Of a stretch of 24,034 bases of DNA, positions 1 to 15,679 are shown in pieces (the first letter of the stretch is position 1; each line of letters starts with the position of its first letter). The notes below the pieces were generated by a model, which did no database searches, was not told the origin of the DNA, and saw only the letters and a program-made list of their open reading frames with translations. The DNA comes from a virus, in IMG/VR virus record IMGVR_UViG_3300030098_004493, positions 1 to 24,034 of that record; one strand, written 5' to 3'. The position numbers and the translations under genes were made by a program.

Positions 1-547
1 AAACATGTCTACCGTGGACCGACACAGACATCTGCTTAGTGATATCCGTAAACCTATCCGTAAGTAGGCAGGTGTTGTTTGCGTCCCCTACTGCGGATCC
101 TTTTGCAACCTTTTTGCTGGAGCCAGTCATGCCAGGAACGCCTTGACCAACAAAGCTAGTCCACTTATCTGCAAGAGAGTCGTAGTACTCAATAAACACA
201 GAGGTGGTCTTGCCTGTTTGAGTTACTCGGTAGACATAACCATAGCCATACCCATCACTTCGAACCCCTCCTGATTCCTTTTGGATTCTAAAGGTGACAG
301 GAAAGAAGTCTTCAACCTTAGAAGCACTGCCAAACTGGTAAGCAGACGCAACTGAACTATCCGTAGTTTGGTAGTCAAGCTCAGCTAATTTTGAGAACCC
401 GGAGATAGGCCTTAGCCCTCCGTCAAAATTACCATCAGCCCCAATGATCTCGTAGGCTTTTCCCGGACGAGTAGAGACACGAGGACGACTCTTGTCCTCA
501 CTAGTCTCAACCATGTTATAGGTCCACTGAGTGGTAAGTTCGTTCAT
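1..547 (-). CDS. Partial virion (tail-region) protein, N-terminal 182 residues
   Basis: An open frame runs from an ATG at 545-547 leftward off the window edge without a stop, giving the first 182 residues. It begins MNELTTQWTYNMVETSEDK, followed by a stretch containing RPGKAYEIIGADGNFDGGL and a Tyr/Gly-rich strand pattern (YGYGYVYRVTQTG). The start overlaps the stop of the upstream 102 aa gene as ATGA, which indicates translational coupling. It is the last gene seen in the late block, downstream of the connector candidate and the Cys-rich protein. The RPG-type N-terminus and beta-rich composition would fit a tail nozzle or stabilisation protein, but that is inference and I do not recognise the family. 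Confidence 0.8.
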   Translation of the reverse strand, partial: MNELTTQWTYNMVETSEDKSRPRVSTRPGKAYEIIGADGNFDGGLRPISGFSKLAELDYQTTDSSVASAYQFGSASKVEDFFPVTFRIQKESGGVRSDGYGYGYVYRVTQTGKTTSVFIEYYDSLADKWTSFVGQGVPGMTGSSKKVAKGSAVGDANNTCLLTDRFTDITKQMSVSVHGRHV

Positions 548-852
548 TTTGGTCCACCAAAGATGCTTGAAAGCCTATGGATAAATCCTCCCCCCACAGG
601 GAAGGGGATCATCTTGTTGAGTTTACGTTGCCTCTTACTACATCCGCAACCAGGTTTTTTCTTTATTTTGACAGTACTAGCTACCTTTGATATGAGGTCG
701 CCTGCACCCTTTACTTCGGCGTCATTAGGCTCTAAAGCTGTAACAACACGAGCAGTCATCTCTTGCTCATCCACCTCGACCTCAAAGACATAGGGTCTAC
801 CTTCAATAGGCAGGTGAATAGGAATAGTTACTTTGTTCTGTTCTTCACTCAT
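544..852 (-). CDS. Small phage protein with C-terminal CGC-KRQRKLN motif (102 aa)
   Basis: The 102 aa protein starts at the ATG at 850-852, which overlaps the TGA of the 604 aa gene (ATGA). The frame stays open up to 903, but that extension would read 51 nt into the upstream gene and lacks the coupling junction. Residues 1-60 are an acidic beta-rich segment. Residues 61-80 hold a lysine-rich stretch followed by PGCGCSKRQRKLNK (Cys69, Cys71), then a Gly/Pro-rich tail. A CGC-x-KRxxxLN pattern recurs, as I recall it, in small phage proteins of unknown role. The paired Cys could bind metal or form disulfides (inference). Its own stop overlaps the next gene's start as ATGA. Confidence 0.85.
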   Translation of the reverse strand: MSEEQNKVTIPIHLPIEGRPYVFEVEVDEQEMTARVVTALEPNDAEVKGAGDLISKVASTVKIKKKPGCGCSKRQRKLNKMIPFPVGGGFIHRLSSIFGGPK

Positions 853-2663
853 ACGGCTGTAAATTGGAAGTTCCCGCCAGACATCGTGGGGCTTGCTGCA
901 CACCCAAACTTCTCAGGGCTGAGAGATACGATGTCTTGAGATTTCCAGTTCTCTCCATCAAAGGCATATATGAATCCAGCATCAGCAAATCCATTATACG
1001 CAGCATAGCTATATAGGTCGCTATACCCGCAATCGGTACCTCCCGGTAAAGATTGGCTGCTCATAAGTTCTTTCATAAGAGTTGGGTAGCACTCTGTGCC
1101 GTCTAGCCCTTCATTTTTCATCCGACAACGACTCTCAGGAAACCCAAATTGAAGACAATCGTACTCTCCAGCCGAAGTACCACAACCAAACCCGTTACTT
1201 GCAAAGTGATTGCTTGTTCTTAGATGAAGAACGTATTTACTTTCAGCTGTTTCGTGGTTATCTAAAGCTCCGCCGTCTGATCCGGATCCTGTGCTTTCAC
1301 AACCAACAAACATTCCCCCTGGATGGTTCGTAGTTGCACCACTACTGTTGTCTACTCGACAACAGTCTCCTGACGTAGGAGAGCCTCCTCTACAACAGTC
1401 AAACGTGCAATTTGAATTACAAGTAACTCCGGCATCATCCCAATCGTCGCCCGTCCAAAAAGTAAACTTAACTCTAAAATCAGGGTGAGCACGACCTACT
1501 GGAGGTTGGTCGCAACTAAACTTTAATCTTATGTAGGCAGAGGCGCTTTTTCTGTCGCCTACATTAGTGTTGCAAGACACAATAGTCCTACAATCTTCAG
1601 TCATATTCTGAGAACCACAAGCTAAATCAGTAGGGTCACATGGGTCGGGTCCGCAGTTAGTGCTGCAAGTATACTTTGCTTGACCTCTCATACTAGAAAT
1701 TGTCCAGCCGTTAGCTACTCTCATCTTTGAGGTTTCACTTGGGTAGCCAGGATTAGGGTAGTAAACAGCTTCTGATGGGTCTTGATCGTCTAGGTTTTCT
1801 TTTGTTAACACGTAAACCTTAGGAAGACTTCTAACTTGTTCAATGTTCCTAATGTAATGATCTTTACTTTGAGCCAATTTAACCCAAGGTCGGTTAACGT
1901 CTTGTACGCAGTCTCCACTGCCATTTAATCTTCCATCACATCTTCCGAATGGAGAACAAGGGTCGCCAGTAGGACAACTTTCTAGGTCAGCCTTGCAAGG
2001 AACCTTGCCATCATAAGTAGATCTTCCTTGGTGATCCCAATTCAAATCGGTAACGTCTCTTCGACCACCTGCATCCTGACCGCCTTTATCACAAAAGTAA
2101 GAAATGCCACCTGCTGCCATGCAGTCAGATTGAATCTCATTACAGTTACCTGTTTCCGTTGAAGATTCATATGACAAAGAAGAAACACTAACTACTATTC
2201 GGTCAGGCCAAAACTTTTCATTATTGCAATACCAATCGCAATCATCACACTCGTCAACACGATCATCGCAATTAGTGCATGTGTAGGGAGTTCCCGGATC
2301 CTTAGTTCCATCTAGACCGTAGAAAGGCCAAGGACAAGGTGATTCTTGTGTTTGCTGTCCCGCATCTTCAAAATAACCACAGACTTCTTCTCCGTCCAAT
2401 CCCCCGTTAAGACGCCGACATTTAGGGTCTAGAAACTTAGCTTTGTAAACCTTACCCGTAACAATTAGATTGCCGTCTTGGTCACGCCTTTCAGCACCTT
2501 CAGCTTTCCACTCCCCGTTAACAAGAACTTGACCTGGAACAGTATCAACTAACTGTTCTTCACCACAATCAAGGCACATGTCAGGGTTGTTACCGCAAGG
2601 AATCCACCTCCAACAAGTGGGGTTTGTAGCGGGAGCACAGCAACAACCTCGGTGATGACTCAT
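849..2663 (-). CDS. Cysteine-rich virion-region protein (604 aa, about 43 Cys)
   Basis: I do not recognise this protein. By eye it contains about 43 cysteines (7%), starting with Cys7-Cys8-Cys9 and then Cys17, Cys23, Cys30 and Cys33, with repeated CxxC and CC pairs to the C-terminus. It is acidic (many Asp/Asn/Gly) and has no obvious signal peptide or membrane helix. Phrases such as LNGGLDGEEVCG and LNGSGDC recur loosely, suggesting small disulfide- or metal-held modules. The ATG at 2661-2663 overlaps the stop of the 357 aa gene (ATGA), and its stop overlaps the 102 aa gene the same way, so three or more genes are translationally coupled. Its place beside connector and tail candidates suggests a particle component. 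Such high cysteine content is unusual for a protein assembled in a reducing cytoplasm. Confidence 0.85.
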   Translation of the reverse strand: MSHHRGCCCAPATNPTCWRWIPCGNNPDMCLDCGEEQLVDTVPGQVLVNGEWKAEGAERRDQDGNLIVTGKVYKAKFLDPKCRRLNGGLDGEEVCGYFEDAGQQTQESPCPWPFYGLDGTKDPGTPYTCTNCDDRVDECDDCDWYCNNEKFWPDRIVVSVSSLSYESSTETGNCNEIQSDCMAAGGISYFCDKGGQDAGGRRDVTDLNWDHQGRSTYDGKVPCKADLESCPTGDPCSPFGRCDGRLNGSGDCVQDVNRPWVKLAQSKDHYIRNIEQVRSLPKVYVLTKENLDDQDPSEAVYYPNPGYPSETSKMRVANGWTISSMRGQAKYTCSTNCGPDPCDPTDLACGSQNMTEDCRTIVSCNTNVGDRKSASAYIRLKFSCDQPPVGRAHPDFRVKFTFWTGDDWDDAGVTCNSNCTFDCCRGGSPTSGDCCRVDNSSGATTNHPGGMFVGCESTGSGSDGGALDNHETAESKYVLHLRTSNHFASNGFGCGTSAGEYDCLQFGFPESRCRMKNEGLDGTECYPTLMKELMSSQSLPGGTDCGYSDLYSYAAYNGFADAGFIYAFDGENWKSQDIVSLSPEKFGCAASPTMSGGNFQFTAV

Positions 2664-3733
2664 TCACAAGTTCCGTCGTGCGGAGTAAGACCCTGGAAAA
2701 AGTAAGTGTTTTCGCCTGCTTGGAGTTTGTTGCTTACGTCTTTCCAAATAAACACGTAAGGGTGTTTCAAGTAAAGATTTGAAGGCACTTCAGAATCGGT
2801 AGACGGACTGTAGTAATACGGCTGAGGTTCAAATCCTGCAGGGTAACTAGATCCACAGAGGTCTACGCCCCCCACTATAGGTGAGGGGTAGGCTGAAGAG
2901 TCACAAATGTCTTGTGCAAGACCGCTCTGCCTTAAAGCAACCTCTGATAAGTTGTAGGCTGTTGACGTTATTGCAGACCCGTCAGAGTTAAGGCCACAGC
3001 CTGCAACCCCAACAATGCTATACTTCCAGAGATAATCGTAAGAAAGACCGTTAGCGGCTTCCTTGGAGTAGCCTGTAATCCGCGCTACTCCCCAATAGTT
3101 GTAGATTGTTTTCTCTTCTTCTACAAGCTTTATAAAGTCGTTATCGTTAGTTATATACAAACCACTAAGAGTAAAAGGTCCAGTACCCGTTACTTTAATG
3201 GTATCGCTACCTGTAACCCCTCCTGCTGCAGTAGATGTGATTGTTATCACATTAGCCGACTCACTTATGGTTATGTTCGAACCCGCATCAAGTGTCTTAA
3301 TTACAGCATCTTCACCTTCTTCTGCCGTTGCTTGGAGGATATTAGCGTCCCCTCCACCTGCACTAGATATTTTTTTAACACCGACGTTATCTGATCCGCC
3401 GCCACCACCGCCGCCACCGATACCATCACCATCAGGAAGAACACTATCGTCAGGTAGGTTTAGTGGAGGCCACTGGGGATTTGGAAAGGTGGGCATACTC
3501 GGGAATGCAGGGAATTGCATGTTGAACTGCATTCCCTGATTGGCTAAGCCCGACCCCGAGTTAATAGGCAAGGGGCTTCCACCAAAAGACCCCCCTGGAA
3601 ATGCAGGGTGGTTTCTTCCTGGGATTGTTTGCTTTTGAAGAAAGCCTGCTTGAAACTTGTTGTAAGCAGACGGGCCAAAGGCGCTCCAAATAGGGCCATA
3701 GGCCGAAGCAAAGGCAGGAGTCGGAAATGTCAT
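2660..3733 (-). CDS. Gly-rich, mosaic virion-region protein (357 aa)
   Basis: The start is an ATG with a good ribosome binding site (AAGGAG) in the short gap after the 301 aa gene. The protein has three visible parts. An N-terminal region (about 1-100) is rich in Pro, Phe, Gly and Ala with MQFNMQFPAFPSMP-like short repeats. A run of eight glycines at about 109-116 follows a DGDGIG turn. Then comes a beta-rich region (GSNITISESANVITITSTA) and a C-terminal domain with many Tyr, Ser and a few Cys. The ITIS/VITIT stretch is of the type seen in phage fibre shafts. No family was recognised. A flexible linker joining a virion anchor to a surface domain is the most natural reading (inference). The gene is coupled to the Cys-rich gene by a 4-nt overlap. 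Confidence 0.85.
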   Translation of the reverse strand: MTFPTPAFASAYGPIWSAFGPSAYNKFQAGFLQKQTIPGRNHPAFPGGSFGGSPLPINSGSGLANQGMQFNMQFPAFPSMPTFPNPQWPPLNLPDDSVLPDGDGIGGGGGGGGSDNVGVKKISSAGGGDANILQATAEEGEDAVIKTLDAGSNITISESANVITITSTAAGGVTGSDTIKVTGTGPFTLSGLYITNDNDFIKLVEEEKTIYNYWGVARITGYSKEAANGLSYDYLWKYSIVGVAGCGLNSDGSAITSTAYNLSEVALRQSGLAQDICDSSAYPSPIVGGVDLCGSSYPAGFEPQPYYYSPSTDSEVPSNLYLKHPYVFIWKDVSNKLQAGENTYFFQGLTPHDGTCE

Positions 3734-3742
3734 TACTACTCC

Positions 3743-4648
3743 TTAAGGCAACAAGAACATTGAATTGTCAGCGTTATCAAGAGTGTCCTTATCCCAATGC
3801 TTAGGTGTTCTCATTTGGATGTTGGAGTAGTGATCGCAGACAGTCTTCATTGCATCTCGATATTGCATTTGAATCATCTGGAAGTGAGTTCCAGTAATCT
3901 TCTTATATGAGGCCAGCTTTAATGCACCTGCTGCTGAAATAGCTTCGTACATTGCTTGGAGACCAAAGGGTGCAATCTCATAGCTGATGGAAGAAGAAGG
4001 GGAGTAATGGTCAAACTCCATCCGAGTAGTTAGCTCGATGTCCCCTGTAAACTCACTTGCGCTACTGCTGTCAATAACTCGTTCTTCAATTACATTACCT
4101 GAGAGCAGTCTCAACATAGACCCGGCATAAGCATTAGGCCTTTTGTCAATAGCCCCTAAGGTTGCAGTCCCTAAGGTGAATACTTTATTTGTTGAGTCAA
4201 GTGTTCCTGTGCTGGAGTAATGCAAGAGCAGATCACCCGTATGGGTGTAAAAGATATCAATGTCCCTAGCATTGTTTGGAAAGGGTTTAACTGAAAGAAG
4301 GTTTCCTTCAATGCTCCAACTAGGACCTCTAGGATTCCAGTGGCTTCTAGGCCTGAAGTCATTAGATAAGACCCCACCCTCTTCGTCATAGATACCCACC
4401 GTCCACACCTCACCCACTGTGGGGGGAAGCTGGTAGTACTGCTGATCCTTTACCAACGAAATCCGCAACCGCGACACAACCGGGTTTGTCAGGCTGTTGT
4501 TTACACGAGACACTACGCTCGTCATACAAGGCATAACAATATGTCGGACAAGGAAGTCATCAGAATACTTTGCATCAAGGTCAGGATCGTCCAGGTACCC
4601 GCGAATCCGCTCAATGACCGTATACAAGAATGAGTTAGTTGAATGCAT
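3743..4648 (-). CDS. Putative head-tail connector/adaptor protein (301 aa)
   Basis: The 301 aa protein starts MHSTNSFLYTVIERIRGYLDD. The N-terminal helix is followed by conserved-looking text (LRISLVKDQQYYQLPPTVGEVWTV) and a beta-rich centre. A helical C-terminus contains MYEAISAAGALKLASYKK and FQMIQMQYRDAMKTVCDHY. An N-terminal RIRxYLDDPDLDAKYSDD segment followed by a YQLPP motif is typical of phage connector proteins that join the portal to the tail, as I recall the family. It lies between small structural genes in the late block, 3 nt from the 92 aa gene upstream. The function call is by pattern only. It could also be another virion protein. Confidence 0.65.
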   Translation of the reverse strand: MHSTNSFLYTVIERIRGYLDDPDLDAKYSDDFLVRHIVMPCMTSVVSRVNNSLTNPVVSRLRISLVKDQQYYQLPPTVGEVWTVGIYDEEGGVLSNDFRPRSHWNPRGPSWSIEGNLLSVKPFPNNARDIDIFYTHTGDLLLHYSSTGTLDSTNKVFTLGTATLGAIDKRPNAYAGSMLRLLSGNVIEERVIDSSSASEFTGDIELTTRMEFDHYSPSSSISYEIAPFGLQAMYEAISAAGALKLASYKKITGTHFQMIQMQYRDAMKTVCDHYSNIQMRTPKHWDKDTLDNADNSMFLLP

Positions 4649-5989: not shown

Positions 5990-7099
5990 CTAGAAAACGT
6001 GGGCGACCTCAGGCACAGGTCGCATTACCGCGCCTATGTCAGGGAATGTAGTTCGAGAAGTAGAAGTTGCCGACACAATACTAGGATCGGCGTGGCTTTT
6101 CAATGCGCCTCGTTCCTTTAACAAAGCGCCTCCGCCAGCTGCATTGTTCAATTCGTAGTTGGTCGTATCTACAAATGGACTGGCAGTCAAGGTGATTTGA
6201 TTTATGTTCATGTCACCCATGTTGGTGAAGGTAGTTCCCGTAATGGCCCCTGTCGCATTGTTGTTTAGGAAGTGACCTATGGTGGTTGTATTTGTGCCTT
6301 GAAGGTTTTCAAACGCTTTGACACAGTTGTAGATAATGTTGTTCTGGAAGACAATAACGTCCAGCCTATCGGTAGCTGAACCTTCTTGCATTTGAACTCC
6401 AATGCCACAATTCTCAACTGTGTTGTTTATGCAAACTCCACCTCGTCTTCGGTGATCGTTTCTGTATTGGATTCCGATGAGGTCTGAATCACCGTTTCCT
6501 TTGATAATGCAGTTTACAACATCGTTTCGCTTAAAATCACATTCTACGATAAGTACTCGGGCACCACTTGCTGCAGTACTACCTGTTGCCTCAAAGTAAC
6601 AGTCGATGGCGCTTCCTCGTTTTAGCCATACAATGCCAGCTGTATTGATGGGTGCTGCAACGTAGCAGTTTATCATTGAGCCGTCTTCTGCTTGTGCAAT
6701 GCTTCCTGTATTAGAAGTACTGACAATCTTGCATCTATAAGAACAACTCATGTCCCCAGATACCCAGAGGAGGAGTGTGGTAGTGGAGCTAATGTCAAGA
6801 CCTTCAATCAAGACATTCTCGCCCGTACACTTGAATCTATTGTTCTGTTCGAACATCCCCCCATCACCAATGGTGCTTGTATAGGCACGAATGTGAATGG
6901 GAGCGGTAGCCGTTCCACTTACATTCCAGGTGATTTCACCTGTAGCTATTCGGGAAGAAGTTCGTTTGACGTTGATGCGATCCCCGGCTGAAGCGCCAGA
7001 AATGGCATCTCCCCAAGTTTGCCAGGCATTAGCCTCAGAAGAACCATCGTTATCCCCTGAAGATAAGTCATAGTTGAGGTACTTTTCTGTGAACGCCAT
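5990..7099 (-). CDS. Right-handed parallel beta-helix protein, candidate tailspike (369 aa)
   Basis: The N-terminus (about 1-45) reads MAFTEKYLNYDLSSGDNDGS and then ANAWQTWGDAISGASAGDRI, the usual entry into a pectate-lyase-like beta-helix. Rungs of about 20-25 residues follow, with repeated short strands and Asn/Cys/Gly turns: NVLIEGLDISSTT, GSMINCYVAA, GSAIDCYFEATG, NDVVNCIIKGNGDSD, CINNTVENCGIGVQMQ and VIVFQNNIIYNCV. The fold is known for phage tailspikes that bind or cleave host polysaccharide. No catalytic residues can be assigned by eye. At 369 aa it is short for a full depolymerase and lacks an obvious separate head-binding domain. It sits directly after two fibre-type genes, 3 nt from the upstream stop, which supports a receptor-binding or surface role. 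Confidence 0.75.
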   Translation of the reverse strand: MAFTEKYLNYDLSSGDNDGSSEANAWQTWGDAISGASAGDRINVKRTSSRIATGEITWNVSGTATAPIHIRAYTSTIGDGGMFEQNNRFKCTGENVLIEGLDISSTTTLLLWVSGDMSCSYRCKIVSTSNTGSIAQAEDGSMINCYVAAPINTAGIVWLKRGSAIDCYFEATGSTAASGARVLIVECDFKRNDVVNCIIKGNGDSDLIGIQYRNDHRRRGGVCINNTVENCGIGVQMQEGSATDRLDVIVFQNNIIYNCVKAFENLQGTNTTTIGHFLNNNATGAITGTTFTNMGDMNINQITLTASPFVDTTNYELNNAAGGGALLKERGALKSHADPSIVSATSTSRTTFPDIGAVMRPVPEVAHVF

Positions 7100-7102
7100 A
7101 GG

Positions 7103-7831
7103 TCAACTCTCTGCTAATTCGACCATTACGGTGGCCCTGGTAATTGTTGCAGGGGTACCTGTTACTTCGAACTCAAACATATCATCTGCTGCAATAGTTG
7201 CGTCATCAAAGCTAGATGTGATTTCCGCAGTCTGAGCACTTGAGACAGAGATCACATCAGTTGTCGCAGATGTTCCAGAGATAGCCCCACTGGCTCGGGT
7301 CCTAATTGTTACCTCAAGGTTGCCCGAAGCGTTGCAGACAAGATTTATCTGCTGAACCGTACATGCATAAGGAATCCTTCTCCAACCCTTTATCCCCGTC
7401 GTAATGACGTTGCTCCCCCCATCAATGGTGATACCGATCACCTCCTTGTTTTTGGTGTCTGAACTAGGGCCCGAATATGCAAATACACCAGTGGAATTGT
7501 TGTAACTAAGGCCAGTACCCGTCGCACTAAAAGAGGACTTGGTAGTGTACCCTGAGTCGTTCGTTAAGACACTTAACGTCTTTGGTTCGGAGTAGCTAAT
7601 CAATCCAGTAGTGGAGTTATAGCTAAGATCGCCCCCCACTGAAATAGAGTTCCTTGCGTCAGCTTGGTTAAAGGTGACATCAGAGGAGACACTAACTGTG
7701 GGGTTTGCGGTTGCACTTACTGTGACCGAGGGAGCAGCTGTCGCAGAAACGGTTACGCTAGGCGCAGCACTAGCTGTGACTGTAACTGCTGGGGGATCTG
7801 TTTGCGTAACTACTACAGTGGGGCTACTCAC
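7103..7831 (-). CDS. Tail-fibre-like protein with short N-terminal repeats (242 aa)
   Basis: The start is the GTG at 7829-7831, overlapping the TGA of the 363 aa gene (GTGA). Residues 1-50 are tandem repeats of about 10 residues of the type APSVTVSATA (four copies with variations). Next come two fibre-shaft repeats, DLSYNSTTGLISYSEP and GLSYNNSTGVFAYSGP, a pattern known from phage tail fibres. A C-terminal domain of about 115 residues begins at GITIDGGSNVITTGIKGWRR, a compact beta domain I associate with distal ends of aquatic phage fibres. This layout fits a small trimeric fibre with a terminal ligand-binding domain (inference). It is followed after 3 nt by the beta-helix gene. Confidence 0.75.
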   Translation of the reverse strand: MSSPTVVVTQTDPPAVTVTASAAPSVTVSATAAPSVTVSATANPTVSVSSDVTFNQADARNSISVGGDLSYNSTTGLISYSEPKTLSVLTNDSGYTTKSSFSATGTGLSYNNSTGVFAYSGPSSDTKNKEVIGITIDGGSNVITTGIKGWRRIPYACTVQQINLVCNASGNLEVTIRTRASGAISGTSATTDVISVSSAQTAEITSSFDDATIAADDMFEFEVTGTPATITRATVMVELAES

Positions 7832-9004: not shown

Positions 9005-10567
9005 TTACGCACCGAAGATTTGGTCAGTGGTGCAACCAGTCAGCTTCAGACCTGCGGGTTGATCTGGGATCAACTGCATGCGAAGCATACCTGGAAGCTG
9101 GACACCCTCAGTGACCTGAGTACGACCGCCATCAGTTCCGTCAGTTGTGCTGATTGGAGCCTTGATGCCGCCGTAGCCAAGAGCCGGAGCAACAAATTCG
9201 AATGGCAAGAATGATTCTGCCTTATCAAACTTTTGCGTACCAGCTGGTGACGGTGGGACGTAACGCTTCCAGTTATTGCCACCCTTACGGATGCCATAAA
9301 CTGCACCATCTTCGACATAGTTAGACGTGTAACCCTTATAGGAACGTCCGTCCATTGCGAAGGTAAAGCCTTCATCCGAACCTTGTGAGTTAAGGGACGA
9401 AGGACGACCAGTTCGATCAATCATGTACTGACCGATCTTCTGTGACTCGTAGTTGAGCCACACACCATCGGATGCGATCAGGCAGTCAATGTACATGCCG
9501 TATCGGTCCTTGGCGCGGTGGAACCCACGAAGGTACTGACGAAGCTTATGCTCAGTCAAAGCACCGACTGAAGACTTGGTGTAAGACTTGTGCTCTGTGT
9601 GGATGCCTACGTCAATAGCGTTGCCGGAAATGGCATCATTACCGAGAAGGTTACCCGAAGCCTTAAGCCAGGAGTTTACACCAGCGATTGCACCGTCATT
9701 TGCTGCACTAGAACCTGCAGTGGTGTTACGGTATCCAGGAAGAACAATACGGTCGCCCGTACCAGCTGCGCCAGTTGCGACGTTGCTGTTAAGGTCCCCT
9801 GCACTACCAACATTTTGACCGAGGGTAACAGTTCCTGCTACCTCATCAACTGCAAGAACATAAACACCAGTTGCTGCACTAAGAAGGTCGTCTTGAGCAT
9901 CGCTTTCATCAATGATGTCAACACGCATACCAACTGCAAAGCGGTGGTATGACTTCTCATTTGTTGTGATCTCGACCGCATCAGTGGCGTCAAAGCTACT
10001 GGAAACGTTCGATGTCGTAGCAACGGTACCAAGAACGTAGTTGTCGTTCTCAGTGGTGTACCAAGTGTTGCAGACGGTTTGAGAGATGTTACGGGCAAAG
10101 CCTTCCATCTTAGGAGCAATCACGCTACCGATGAAAGCAGGAGTTGCTTCAGCTTGAAGCTCACCCATTGTCATCATCAGGTTGGTGTGGATTGCACGCA
10201 TTGGAACCTGCATACGGTACGGGGTTGCATTTGGACCCGTAAGCGCGTCAGGGAAAGACTGAGTCAGTTCTTGGAGGTGAAGCTTTGGACCAAGTGCCGC
10301 ATCTTCATCGCCAAACAAGGTGAAGTCTTGAGTATTAGTTGAGTTACTCATTTGAACAACACCAGCCATCGAGCCCATAAACACCTTAGTGACGAGCATG
10401 TCTCGACCGATTGCGGAAGCAGGACCGACGCCCTGCGAGGAAACGATTGTGTCCCGCCATGCGGGATCCATCGACGGCAGAATGACGCCGATGTTCTTAT
10501 TGATGACTTCCTCGATACGCCCACTATGCGTATTGAAGAGGGAGTCGGCAGTTACTGTGTAAGCCAT
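9005..10567 (-). CDS. Major capsid protein (HK97-like fold, 520 aa)
   Basis: This 520 aa protein directly follows the scaffold gene (27-nt gap, ribosome binding site TGAGGA) and is followed by the only strong hairpin in the late block. Those positions suit the most highly expressed virion gene. Text such as MAYTVTADSLFNTHSGRIEE, YRMQVPMRAIHTNLMMTMGE, LTEHKLRQYLRGFHRAKDRY and LIASDGVWLNYES matches the style of HK97-fold capsid subunits of the larger type. About residues 195-300 (VDIIDESDAQDDLLSAATGV to LPGYRNTTAG) look like an insertion domain in the fold. Residues about 430-520 carry the C-terminal strands. The assignment rests on gene order with portal and scaffold, length and sequence style; no database comparison was made. 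Confidence 0.85.
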   Translation of the reverse strand: MAYTVTADSLFNTHSGRIEEVINKNIGVILPSMDPAWRDTIVSSQGVGPASAIGRDMLVTKVFMGSMAGVVQMSNSTNTQDFTLFGDEDAALGPKLHLQELTQSFPDALTGPNATPYRMQVPMRAIHTNLMMTMGELQAEATPAFIGSVIAPKMEGFARNISQTVCNTWYTTENDNYVLGTVATTSNVSSSFDATDAVEITTNEKSYHRFAVGMRVDIIDESDAQDDLLSAATGVYVLAVDEVAGTVTLGQNVGSAGDLNSNVATGAAGTGDRIVLPGYRNTTAGSSAANDGAIAGVNSWLKASGNLLGNDAISGNAIDVGIHTEHKSYTKSSVGALTEHKLRQYLRGFHRAKDRYGMYIDCLIASDGVWLNYESQKIGQYMIDRTGRPSSLNSQGSDEGFTFAMDGRSYKGYTSNYVEDGAVYGIRKGGNNWKRYVPPSPAGTQKFDKAESFLPFEFVAPALGYGGIKAPISTTDGTDGGRTQVTEGVQLPGMLRMQLIPDQPAGLKLTGCTTDQIFGA

Positions 10568-10594
10568 TTGAAGGGGTCCTCAGGAAAGGGGCCG

Positions 10595-11524
10595 TTAGGC
10601 CTTTGACTCTCCGCCTGTAGAAGTATCTTCTGCAAGACGGCTAAGAACGTCCGTATTCCATTCTTTAACGGACGCATCCACGGTACCTCTGTCCATCCCC
10701 GGCTTAAATTCCGGCTCTGGAACAGGAGGCTTGGAAGCAAGAGTCGGCTCTCCGGAGACCGTTTCCGGTGCTCGACCGATTGAGTCGATATCACCGATTA
10801 CCGTCCGGTACGTACCAAGCACTTCTTCGGTAGCTTGTTTTGCTGTGTCTTGGACCCATGCCTCATTGAAGTTGCCTTCCCGAGCCTTACGGTCTTGGAG
10901 CATCTTCAGCGTTCGGTCATGAACCTGTTGTTCAAGACTACCTCGTGCTTTCTCGAAAGCTTCTGAATTGTCGCCTGATTTAAGGCGTCCTAACAATACT
11001 TCAACGTCCTTATTAGTGTCAAGGGCATTATGTATACCTGACTGCATTTCACGTTGAAGCATGGCAAGTCGATATTGACGAAGCTCCTCAGAAGCACGAG
11101 CAGCTTCTTGGCGAGCTTGGGTATCTTCATAGTTCATTTCTGGAGTCTCTTCTACTGGCATTTGGGTCCCCTCAACTTCTTCTTCTTGTTCGGGGCTGTA
11201 CTCTTCTTCTGGCATGCTTAATGCGTTTTGGTATTCAGCCATGTACTTTTCGATTTCAGGAGCTGAGTACCCTGACTCCGAAAGGATAATTCGGGCAGCT
11301 TGCATTCTTTGGTCATCACCAGCAGCACCCGACATCAACTGAACGGTACTTTGCTTGAACTCATTAAGGCGGTCTACCTGGCCTTGAAGGTCTTGCATTT
11401 GGGACTGAGCCTGCATCAAGTCTGAAAGAGTATAAGTCTTTCCTTCAAACTCAATTTCAGTGTCCATTGAGATTTCATCAGAGGCGGGATGTGGACTCTG
11501 AGGTACGGGAGTTTCATCTGACAT
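10595..11524 (-). CDS. Scaffold protein (309 aa, acidic, coiled coil)
   Basis: The gene lies between portal and capsid, the standard place for a scaffold. The 309 aa are acidic and mostly helical. Residues about 25-65 include an N-terminal helix (LMQAQSQMQDLQGQVDRLNE) predicted as a coiled coil. Residues about 105-130 are a Glu/Pro-rich linker (EEEYSPEQEEEVEG), followed by a second long helical region with EAARASEELRQYRLAMLQRE. The C-terminus is disordered and Pro-rich. Its ATG overlaps the portal end by 11 nt, with AAGGAG placed inside the portal gene. Scaffolds direct capsid assembly and are lost from the mature head. No protease domain is visible. Confidence 0.8.
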   Translation of the reverse strand: MSDETPVPQSPHPASDEISMDTEIEFEGKTYTLSDLMQAQSQMQDLQGQVDRLNEFKQSTVQLMSGAAGDDQRMQAARIILSESGYSAPEIEKYMAEYQNALSMPEEEYSPEQEEEVEGTQMPVEETPEMNYEDTQARQEAARASEELRQYRLAMLQREMQSGIHNALDTNKDVEVLLGRLKSGDNSEAFEKARGSLEQQVHDRTLKMLQDRKAREGNFNEAWVQDTAKQATEEVLGTYRTVIGDIDSIGRAPETVSGEPTLASKPPVPEPEFKPGMDRGTVDASVKEWNTDVLSRLAEDTSTGGESKA

Positions 11525-13776: not shown

Positions 13777-15679
13777 TGAAAAGCTCCGAAACTTGTTGGG
13801 GAGTTAGCTTGGACGGATCCAAGGACTCCACATAGTTAATCCCCGTTTCTGAGTCAATAGTAATGCCTGATTGTATTTTAGACCAGACATCAACAGGCTC
13901 ATTATTGCTCTTAGTGACATACTGACGACCTTTAACTATAAACATAGACATTGCTACTGTGTCTAGGACATCGTCATGCTGGAGCCCCCCATTGGGGGCG
14001 TCAGGGTTAAACTCGTCCAGTTGGGTGAACAACATCGACCAAGGCTTGTCGTACCTACGGCGTAGAGGTAGTTTAATAAGTCCATGTTCAAATCGAAAGC
14101 CTAAAGCATTTATCTTAGAAGTCTTGTCCATTTGCCCCACCTTTAGGGGAACAATGCGAGGCAAGCTGGCAACCCCAGCCATTTCAACTGCCCTCTGCTG
14201 CACGATGGATTGCATCGTGGCATAGAGAGAAAATGACTGCTTGACGACTTCTGGGTGAATAGACTTGCAGTTCCATTTCTGGGCCATCTGGAAAGCCCTG
14301 GCAATCAGAACGGATTCCTTCGTCTGGCCTGCCCAGCAATCCAACACAAACAAGGAAGCACTTACCTGATCGTAGCCCATGAGGGTGGCTACCTTGTAAT
14401 CCGAGTCCTTAGTGCTGGTATAGGAAGTGTCGCAGGTAATGAAGGTCTTAACCCTACTGGAGAGGAAGTTAGCAAGAGATTCAGATTGCTTTTCCCCCTC
14501 CTTGTCGTACCAACACATCAGCGTCCTACTCTGTGGGGGGTCCTCTCCGTCAGGCTCCTCAGTCCACCACCCATGCTTGGTTTCCTCAAGCACCCCAAAG
14601 TGCTGATCTTCAGCTTGGCCTGGTTCAGCCATATATTCTGCTGCATAGTTAGCTGAGCCGATCAGTCTTTTAATTTGTTCGAGTGAGACTGCGTCCTTGA
14701 GCTTGTCGTTCTTTTCCTTGTCGGCGTCAGTAAGAGGCCACATAATAGGCCAGCAAGAATGACGCACTCCGTCTTCGTCTTTATATTCTGCTTTGAGAAC
14801 CAGACGACTCCACTCGTCAAAACGAGGATCACGAGAGCGAGGACCAGAAGGTGTGTCCTCAACATCCATTGCGTGCCATGCATAGTGCCTCCTCGATACG
14901 AAGGTGGCTAACCACCTAACGCTCGTATCTCTTCGGGTAACCATTGGCATAACGACCTTAAACAATAACTGTTCCATATAGGAACGAAGAAGCGACAGGG
15001 AAGTTCCAGCCCTTCCGTCGTATTCCGGGTCATCCAATAGGTAACACTGGGGACGCCCACCACGCTGGCGAGACTCGGCAGACAAACTTCTAAACCAAGA
15101 CCCATTGTCTAAGTACATTAGTTCAATACCAAATGACTTCTCTCCTCTCCTAGGAGTAATACGATTCCCAGGAGACTCAGGTGCAAAATCATCAGATATT
15201 CGACTGTTGTCTGTGAATTGTGTCTTTAATACTTGTGCTGTCTGCGCTGCGTTATCGTGGGAGGAAGTGGCATAAATGAACGAGTACCCAGGTCGGGAGA
15301 GCATTTGAAGCAATGCCGACTTGCGGATGCAATTACTTTTAGCAAATCCACGGGGCGCAATAGCCAAAGCACGACGAGAAAGAGCCCACAAACGATAAAT
15401 CGCAAAGTGACCCAAGGGAGGATCAAGAGGCGTATCATCGTAGAACATGGGGTAAAAGTCAGCTTCGTCGTCTGGGTAGAGGTAATAGCTATCGAAGAAA
15501 TGGACCGCAGATGCAAAGGCGGTTGCCTTTCGCTGAGGGTCGTTATGCTGAACCATCCACTGACGACAAGCATTAACTCTCGATAACCGTTGACCTTCTT
15601 GAGTCAACTCTTGATAGTCGGCAGGCAAGGGATACAAAGGGTTCCCTTGGTCCTTCATTGGAACTGAAACTACTTTCAT
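13730..15679 (-). CDS. terL: Terminase large subunit (649 aa)
   Basis: The terminase large subunit is the packaging motor ATPase and headful or end nuclease. Walker A is IAPRGFAKSN at about 107-116, of the xRGxxKS type found in T7-like terminases. Walker B is CYLLDDPEY at about 212-220 (Asp216, Asp217, with Glu219 near the catalytic position). The C-terminal RNase H-like nuclease has FITCDTSYTSTKDSDYKV at 413-430 (Asp417), VLDCWAG at about 445-451 (Asp447) and HDDVLDT at about 568-574. All core residues are present and the length is usual. The ATG overlaps the stop of the 128 aa gene as ATGA. The N-terminal 95 residues are a helical lead-in without known motif. Confidence 0.95.
   Translation of the reverse strand: MKVVSVPMKDQGNPLYPLPADYQELTQEGQRLSRVNACRQWMVQHNDPQRKATAFASAVHFFDSYYLYPDDEADFYPMFYDDTPLDPPLGHFAIYRLWALSRRALAIAPRGFAKSNCIRKSALLQMLSRPGYSFIYATSSHDNAAQTAQVLKTQFTDNSRISDDFAPESPGNRITPRRGEKSFGIELMYLDNGSWFRSLSAESRQRGGRPQCYLLDDPEYDGRAGTSLSLLRSYMEQLLFKVVMPMVTRRDTSVRWLATFVSRRHYAWHAMDVEDTPSGPRSRDPRFDEWSRLVLKAEYKDEDGVRHSCWPIMWPLTDADKEKNDKLKDAVSLEQIKRLIGSANYAAEYMAEPGQAEDQHFGVLEETKHGWWTEEPDGEDPPQSRTLMCWYDKEGEKQSESLANFLSSRVKTFITCDTSYTSTKDSDYKVATLMGYDQVSASLFVLDCWAGQTKESVLIARAFQMAQKWNCKSIHPEVVKQSFSLYATMQSIVQQRAVEMAGVASLPRIVPLKVGQMDKTSKINALGFRFEHGLIKLPLRRRYDKPWSMLFTQLDEFNPDAPNGGLQHDDVLDTVAMSMFIVKGRQYVTKSNNEPVDVWSKIQSGITIDSETGINYVESLDPSKLTPQQVSELFNAHTGNGSGSTESKV

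Follow-up and report, generated by a model that had tools for sequence, protein, structure and literature searches.

Phage tail proteins are folded in the reducing cytoplasm of the host and usually contain few cysteines. What role, then, might be served by a protein with 43 cysteines whose gene sits within the late cassette of an uncultured phage? This gene is carried by a 24,034-base virus contig from IMG/VR, the whole of which is called the window here, and the features of the window that bear on the question are as follows.

849 to 2663, minus strand: Cys-rich protein gene (604 aa, 43 Cys), a proposed swappable host-contact adhesin on the basis of its open reading frame (ORF), its composition and the syntenic Cys-rich genes.
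2637 to 2645, minus strand: N-terminal CCC box of the Cys-rich protein (residues 7-9, MSHHRGCCCAP), common to most of the families that cannot be aligned with one another.
544 to 852, minus strand: gene of the small partner (102 aa), joined to the Cys-rich gene by an ATGA overlap; its product has a conserved CGC-x-x-R-x-x-x-LN tail.
640 to 648, minus strand: Cys-Gly-Cys motif of the small partner.
2660 to 3733, minus strand: Gly-rich protein (357 aa), the ATGA-coupled upstream neighbor, sharing 29-31% identity with its syntenic relatives.
3743 to 4648, minus strand: adaptor-like protein (301 aa) with a weak SU10_adaptor match (PF24175, E=0.016), which served as the anchor for the relative search.
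2 to 547, minus strand: first 182 aa of a conserved protein, probably the tail nozzle, that extends past the edge of the window and is large (990-1257 aa) in relatives.

The terminase encoded in the window matches phrog_38 (1.8e-34). In the late cassette, it is followed by a portal-size protein of 670 aa, a scaffold-like protein, a capsid-size protein of 520 aa, several tail or decoration genes, the adaptor-like, Gly-rich, Cys-rich and small CGC genes, the large protein and then large Cys-poor proteins. The gene order is like that of short-tailed phages that have an adaptor, a nozzle and internal proteins, and the contig represents part of the genome of an uncultured phage of this type. The nozzle label is assigned from position and size because the profile of the large protein has no database match, and tblastn linked this protein to the relatives.

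Probes made from the adaptor, portal, capsid and Cys-rich genes found no match among cultured phages (50,697 phage records), and adaptor and capsid profiles found no relative in about 85,000 GTDB genomes. The terminase alone gave distant partial matches among the phage records or GTDB. The lineage to which the window belongs (loci L011-L090) consists of diverse phages of about 50 kb that are unmatched by these genes in the two collections. One near-complete relative (50 kb) encodes a family-A DNA polymerase and a DUF5906/D5_N protein, and no tRNA genes were found in the loci scanned. Elsewhere in the window, positions 5990-7099 (minus strand) encode a 369-aa protein with 2.7% Cys whose sequence resembles a right-handed beta-helix spike, with no match in Pfam or PHROGs; this product may be an alternative host-contact protein. 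The protein encoded at 7103-7831 (minus strand) begins with low-complexity repeats of the TVTVSATAAP type, and similar VSSTDPPTVTVT runs occur in relatives.

A preliminary description of this DNA had noted a protein of 604 aa with about 43 cysteines, or roughly 7%. The exact values are 43 and 7.12%, and to these we add the strand (minus), which that description did not give. The cysteines form one CCC group (residues 7-9), two CC groups and three CxxC groups. By comparison, the window's 20 remaining late genes encode 47 cysteines in 5707 residues (0.82%), and at this background rate the binomial probability of at least 43 cysteines in 604 residues is 3.5e-26. The base composition of the gene alone predicts about 3.2% Cys. 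The translational coupling that had been claimed with the Gly-rich gene upstream and the CGC gene downstream is also borne out, in that 4-nt ATGA overlaps join the stop of the Gly-rich gene to the start of the Cys-rich gene and the stop of the latter to the start of the small CGC gene. A third such overlap, beyond the earlier claim, chains the stop of the small CGC gene to the start of the next gene. The Cys-rich protein of the window has no match in Pfam (up to E=1), in PHROGs or among PDB sequences (up to E=10), and no transmembrane segment was found.

When used as a direct query, this protein recovered no relative in the 50,697 phage records or in IMG/VR. Relatives of the gene were found only via the adaptor gene, which identified 9 loci when used as a single sequence and 80 loci when used as an alignment. 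We counted as relatives the 44 IMG/VR loci with distinct adaptors in which both flanking anchors are present, and 43 of them have a Cys-rich ORF between these anchors (the sole exception is L045). The ORF of the window is therefore not an artifact of frame choice. For a few loci of high GC content, automatic ORF selection landed on a false frame; the true gene there, of about 500 aa, encodes only 2-4% Cys. The Cys-rich ORFs of L051 and L053 are short (about 130 aa), while the other syntenic proteins range from about 240 to 1405 aa and carry up to 85 cysteines. They fall into about a dozen families whose bodies do not align with one another, and even the proteins of the window and L011 share a local match only (E=7e-5). 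A Cys-rich gene at this place is a real trait, strongly conserved across a large lineage of uncultured phages.

What most of these families do share is the extreme N terminus. Of 46 unique relatives, 29 have a CCC group among their 35 N-terminal residues, which is about 56-fold above shuffled sequences (mean 0.5, maximum 4). Likewise, the best matches of several family pairs compared with hhalign fall on residues 1-26. Common ancestry of all families over their whole length was considered and rejected, because hhalign supports the N-terminal box alone. We propose that the CCC box may be an anchor or assembly motif.

The remainder of the gene diverges rapidly between close phages. Loci L012 and L016 are 95-98% identical across most of 20 kb, whereas their Cys-rich gene, the most divergent of all, retains 37-61% nucleotide identity per 300-base block and 43-48% amino acid identity. 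The first 27 or so codons are unchanged, and the divergence begins after them. In five looser pairs (L059/L060, L052/L055, L017/L018, L047/L068 and L046/L088), the portals are 83-97% identical and the Cys-rich proteins 28-57%. The pair L021/L034 shows the opposite order, with 70% identity for the adaptor and 85% for the Cys-rich protein. Hypervariability of the gene is therefore established for the close pair L012/L016 and for several more distant pairs. Mutagenesis by a retroelement appears disfavored as the source, since the divergence is spread along the whole gene. A second patch of divergence between L012 and L016 (63-74% nucleotide identity; L012 positions 3901-4500) lies inside the capsid gene and suggests a variable, surface-exposed capsid region, and identity drops again, to 73%, in the nozzle-like gene.

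Some relatives show affinities to known fibers. L089, L075, L083 and L086 have Gly-x-y repeats like those of collagen-like phage tail fibers (PF01391; phrog_1806 and phrog_30509, "collagen like minor tail"), with Cys-rich parts after them. The PF01391 matches of L089 and L075 have E values of about 1e-11 and 1e-12, and L089 also matches many tail-fiber PHROGs. In contrast, the Cys-rich protein of the window lacks a collagen repeat and does not match these families. Carbohydrate-related genes were also seen in this interval in two relatives. In L066, a polysaccharide pyruvyl transferase (PF04230, 2e-13; positions 14410-15183) is encoded between the Cys-rich collagen fiber and nozzle genes and possibly modifies the fiber or a host glycan. 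In L065, a protein with an SO2946-like C-terminal domain occupies the interval of the Cys-rich gene.

Structure prediction gave limited guidance. An AlphaFold model of L060, a family-I relative, was built from eight sequences and has long, confident beta strands, with a mean pLDDT of 54 and a pTM of 0.60. This low-confidence model has no BFVD match at E<=0.001, and its best PDB Z score of 6.7 is in the common range. Outer-membrane barrels were the best PDB rows, but with Z below 7 we read them as a generic beta arrangement and did not adopt this identity. The single-sequence model of the window protein (pLDDT 33) is uninformative.

The closest parallel is offered by modular phage receptor-binding proteins (RBPs), such as the tail fibers and tailspikes of Klebsiella phages, which have a short conserved N terminus and a variable remainder, are encoded in the tail module and are swapped between phages (PMC8262889, PMC12692247). 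The Cys-rich proteins share the conserved short N terminus (the CCC box in 29/46 relatives and the unchanged codons of L012/L016) with a variable rest, and variation between close phages far above that of the rest of the genome, for which L021/L034 is a counterexample. They also share the location in the tail module, as judged by gene position alone, the swapping between phages and the collagen-type fibers at the same place. They differ in that their Cys content is 3-12%, the N terminus carries the CCC box, a dedicated small partner with CGC accompanies them and no known RBP domain is present; their contact with the host is putative. By this analogy, the Cys-rich protein most likely works like a modular RBP. 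A search of the open-access literature returned no description of such Cys-rich phage proteins.

The second component of the locus is the small partner, which in the window is 47% identical to its L011 counterpart. A strict pattern (CGC or a near variant, then R..LN or LT) identifies such an ORF between the Cys-rich and nozzle genes in 19 of 40 loci; the same pattern gave 40 hits overall in 1.3 million residues. Twelve more loci have a partner recognizable by eye, 11 with CGC and L059 with CSC. Many partners have a zinc-ribbon-like layout (Cx2C...Cx2CGC...CP) ending in CP..KW, with weak matches to DUF6171 and the NOB1 zinc ribbon. The L085 partner, for example, matches DUF6171 at E=0.0027 (18.5 bits versus a cut-off of 27) and phrog_13558 at 6.7e-9. 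The distant partners thus have the CxxC...CxxCGC...CP layout of the small Cys proteins of DUF6171, phrog_13558 and phrog_32048, whereas the window partner retains only the CGC-x-x-R-x-x-x-LN tail and matches phrog_32048 (2.8e-4) but not DUF6171. To our knowledge, none of these three families has an assigned function. In L049 (positions 10447-11454), and also in L051 and L053, the short Cys-rich gene is followed by a gene whose product joins DUF6734 to a DUF6171 domain at the C terminus (PF20508, E=4e-34; PF19668, 4e-7), and the L049 fusion passes the DUF6171 cut-off at 30.7 bits. This arrangement resembles a fusion of the small partner with another enzyme-like protein. The redox potential of CGC dithiols is reportedly similar to that of disulfide isomerase, and small CGC peptides are reported to mimic that enzyme (PMC4316792); a redox role for the partner is possible by analogy with this chemistry.

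Similarly Cys-rich but otherwise very different proteins are thus found at the same place in nearly all relatives, which points to a protein that is probably fast changing, braced by disulfides and in contact with the host. We give somewhat better than even chances to the reading that the Cys-rich protein is a variable, disulfide-braced host-contact component of the short tail, with a CCC N terminus and a CGC partner; its presence in the particle, its contact with the host, its disulfide state and the job of the partner are all things we infer. A variable tail component of the receptor-binding or adhesin type would be encoded in the ATGA-coupled cassette between adaptor and nozzle. Its short conserved N terminus with the CCC box would attach it to the virion or to the partner, and the beta-rich remainder would evolve or be swapped as a unit while retaining its cysteine spacing. 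The cysteines would most likely be reduced in the host cytoplasm and form disulfides after lysis in oxidizing water, yielding a rigid, protease-resistant fiber or knob with variable loops. The small CGC protein would act as the dedicated partner of the Cys-rich protein by holding it, shielding it or aiding its oxidation. The earlier interpretation thus survives in part: a gene of the structural module that is probably host contacting fits its place between adaptor-like and nozzle-like genes, its coupling, its hypervariability and the occurrence of one family independently of the virion backbone (see below). The suggestion of eukaryote-like modules finds no support, given that searches of the window protein and its non-collagen relatives revealed no Pfam domain and that the PDB search with the window protein found no match up to E=10.

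Are the cysteines joined in disulfides, or do they bind metal? They are the most conserved residues within families. Among BLAST alignments of relatives less than 90% identical, 78% of aligned cysteines are kept, compared to 64% of Gly and 61% of Trp, so the poor cysteine conservation that had been named beforehand as evidence against the idea was not found. Even in the L012/L016 pair, at about 48% overall identity, 25 cysteines align to cysteine and 11 to other residues. An unlikely alternative is that the protein has the same surface role but its cysteines bind zinc or iron in the reducing cytoplasm, making it rigid before lysis, with metal delivered or shared by the CGC/CxxC partner. This would explain how the protein can fold under the reducing conditions of the cell and is in keeping with the zinc-ribbon-like partners of relatives. 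It also accords with the prevalence of odd cysteine totals among CCC-box proteins (18 odd, 8 even), which implies that not every cysteine is in an intrachain disulfide; such totals are weakly compatible with an interchain CCC box and pairing of the remaining cysteines. However, paired CxxC motifs, as in zinc knuckles or ribbons, are no commoner than chance across 38 relatives (78 observed versus 71.8 in shuffles, z 0.8), and histidines are few (1.3%, with 9 in the protein of the window). Because C-x4-C and C-x6-C spacings are enriched in addition (z 4.1 and 3.5), we lean toward disulfides, which the spacing statistics favor weakly over classical CxxC zinc knuckles. Thioredoxin and DsbA families were absent above cut-off from all 25 related records examined, with positive controls, whereas an Erv/ALR search gave no match but its control was equally silent. 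Oxidation would therefore be spontaneous after lysis or depend on host factors or the partner.

A further alternative, to which we also assign a low probability, is that the protein is part of the virion backbone, such as a tail or collar decoration, that stabilizes the particle without choosing the host, with its variation reflecting relaxed constraint or escape from host proteases. The fixed place in the adaptor-nozzle cassette and near-universal presence are as such a part would have, and the capsid and nozzle genes vary too. Collagen-fiber variants at the same place argue against it, as does the distribution of one family. The profile of this family (A4) found 23 loci, and L095 and L106-L113 lack the adaptor and nozzle of the short-tailed lineage. 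L111 instead encodes a gp6-type head-tail connector (PF05135, 1.9e-11) and a tail-tube protein, with the CCC protein downstream of the tail genes, and L095 carries a RecT gene. A small CGC protein follows the CCC protein in both. The Cys-rich protein of L095 aligns with that of L060 over its full length (32% identity), and its small partner is 41-43% identical to partners of the short-tailed lineage. One family thus recurs in unrelated backbones of the long-tailed (siphovirus) type, at least two of them still with the small CGC protein, and the pair behaves as a backbone-independent cassette, which would be unexpected for a backbone part. This occurrence concerns the one family only, and scans with three other families gave only contigs already known.

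A more ambitious version of the host-contact reading seems doubtful at present, namely that the two genes form a transferable adhesin system in which a disulfide-armored, hypervariable tail adhesin is accompanied by the CGC protein as its own thiol-disulfide catalyst or holdase. If true, these two genes would enable the virus to make, within the reducing cytoplasm, a Cys-rich protein of the extracellular style. It is very improbable that the protein is non-structural, for instance one that accumulates during infection and binds thiols, metals or redox enzymes of the host: the virion location is predicted from gene context and no fold is assigned, but the gene is ATGA-coupled inside a late structural cassette, and the pattern of diversification and the collagen and tail-fiber matches of relatives indicate a place in the tail.

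A whole uncultured phage lineage and some unrelated phages keep an extremely Cys-rich and fast-diversifying protein at one place. If the host-contact reading is confirmed, these proteins would represent a class of host-recognition scaffold that current annotation has missed, as illustrated by the window protein, which matches neither Pfam nor PHROGs. They would also point out the host-range gene in a large number of genomes from uncultured phages, and direct tests would become possible of how virion proteins braced by disulfides or metal are made.
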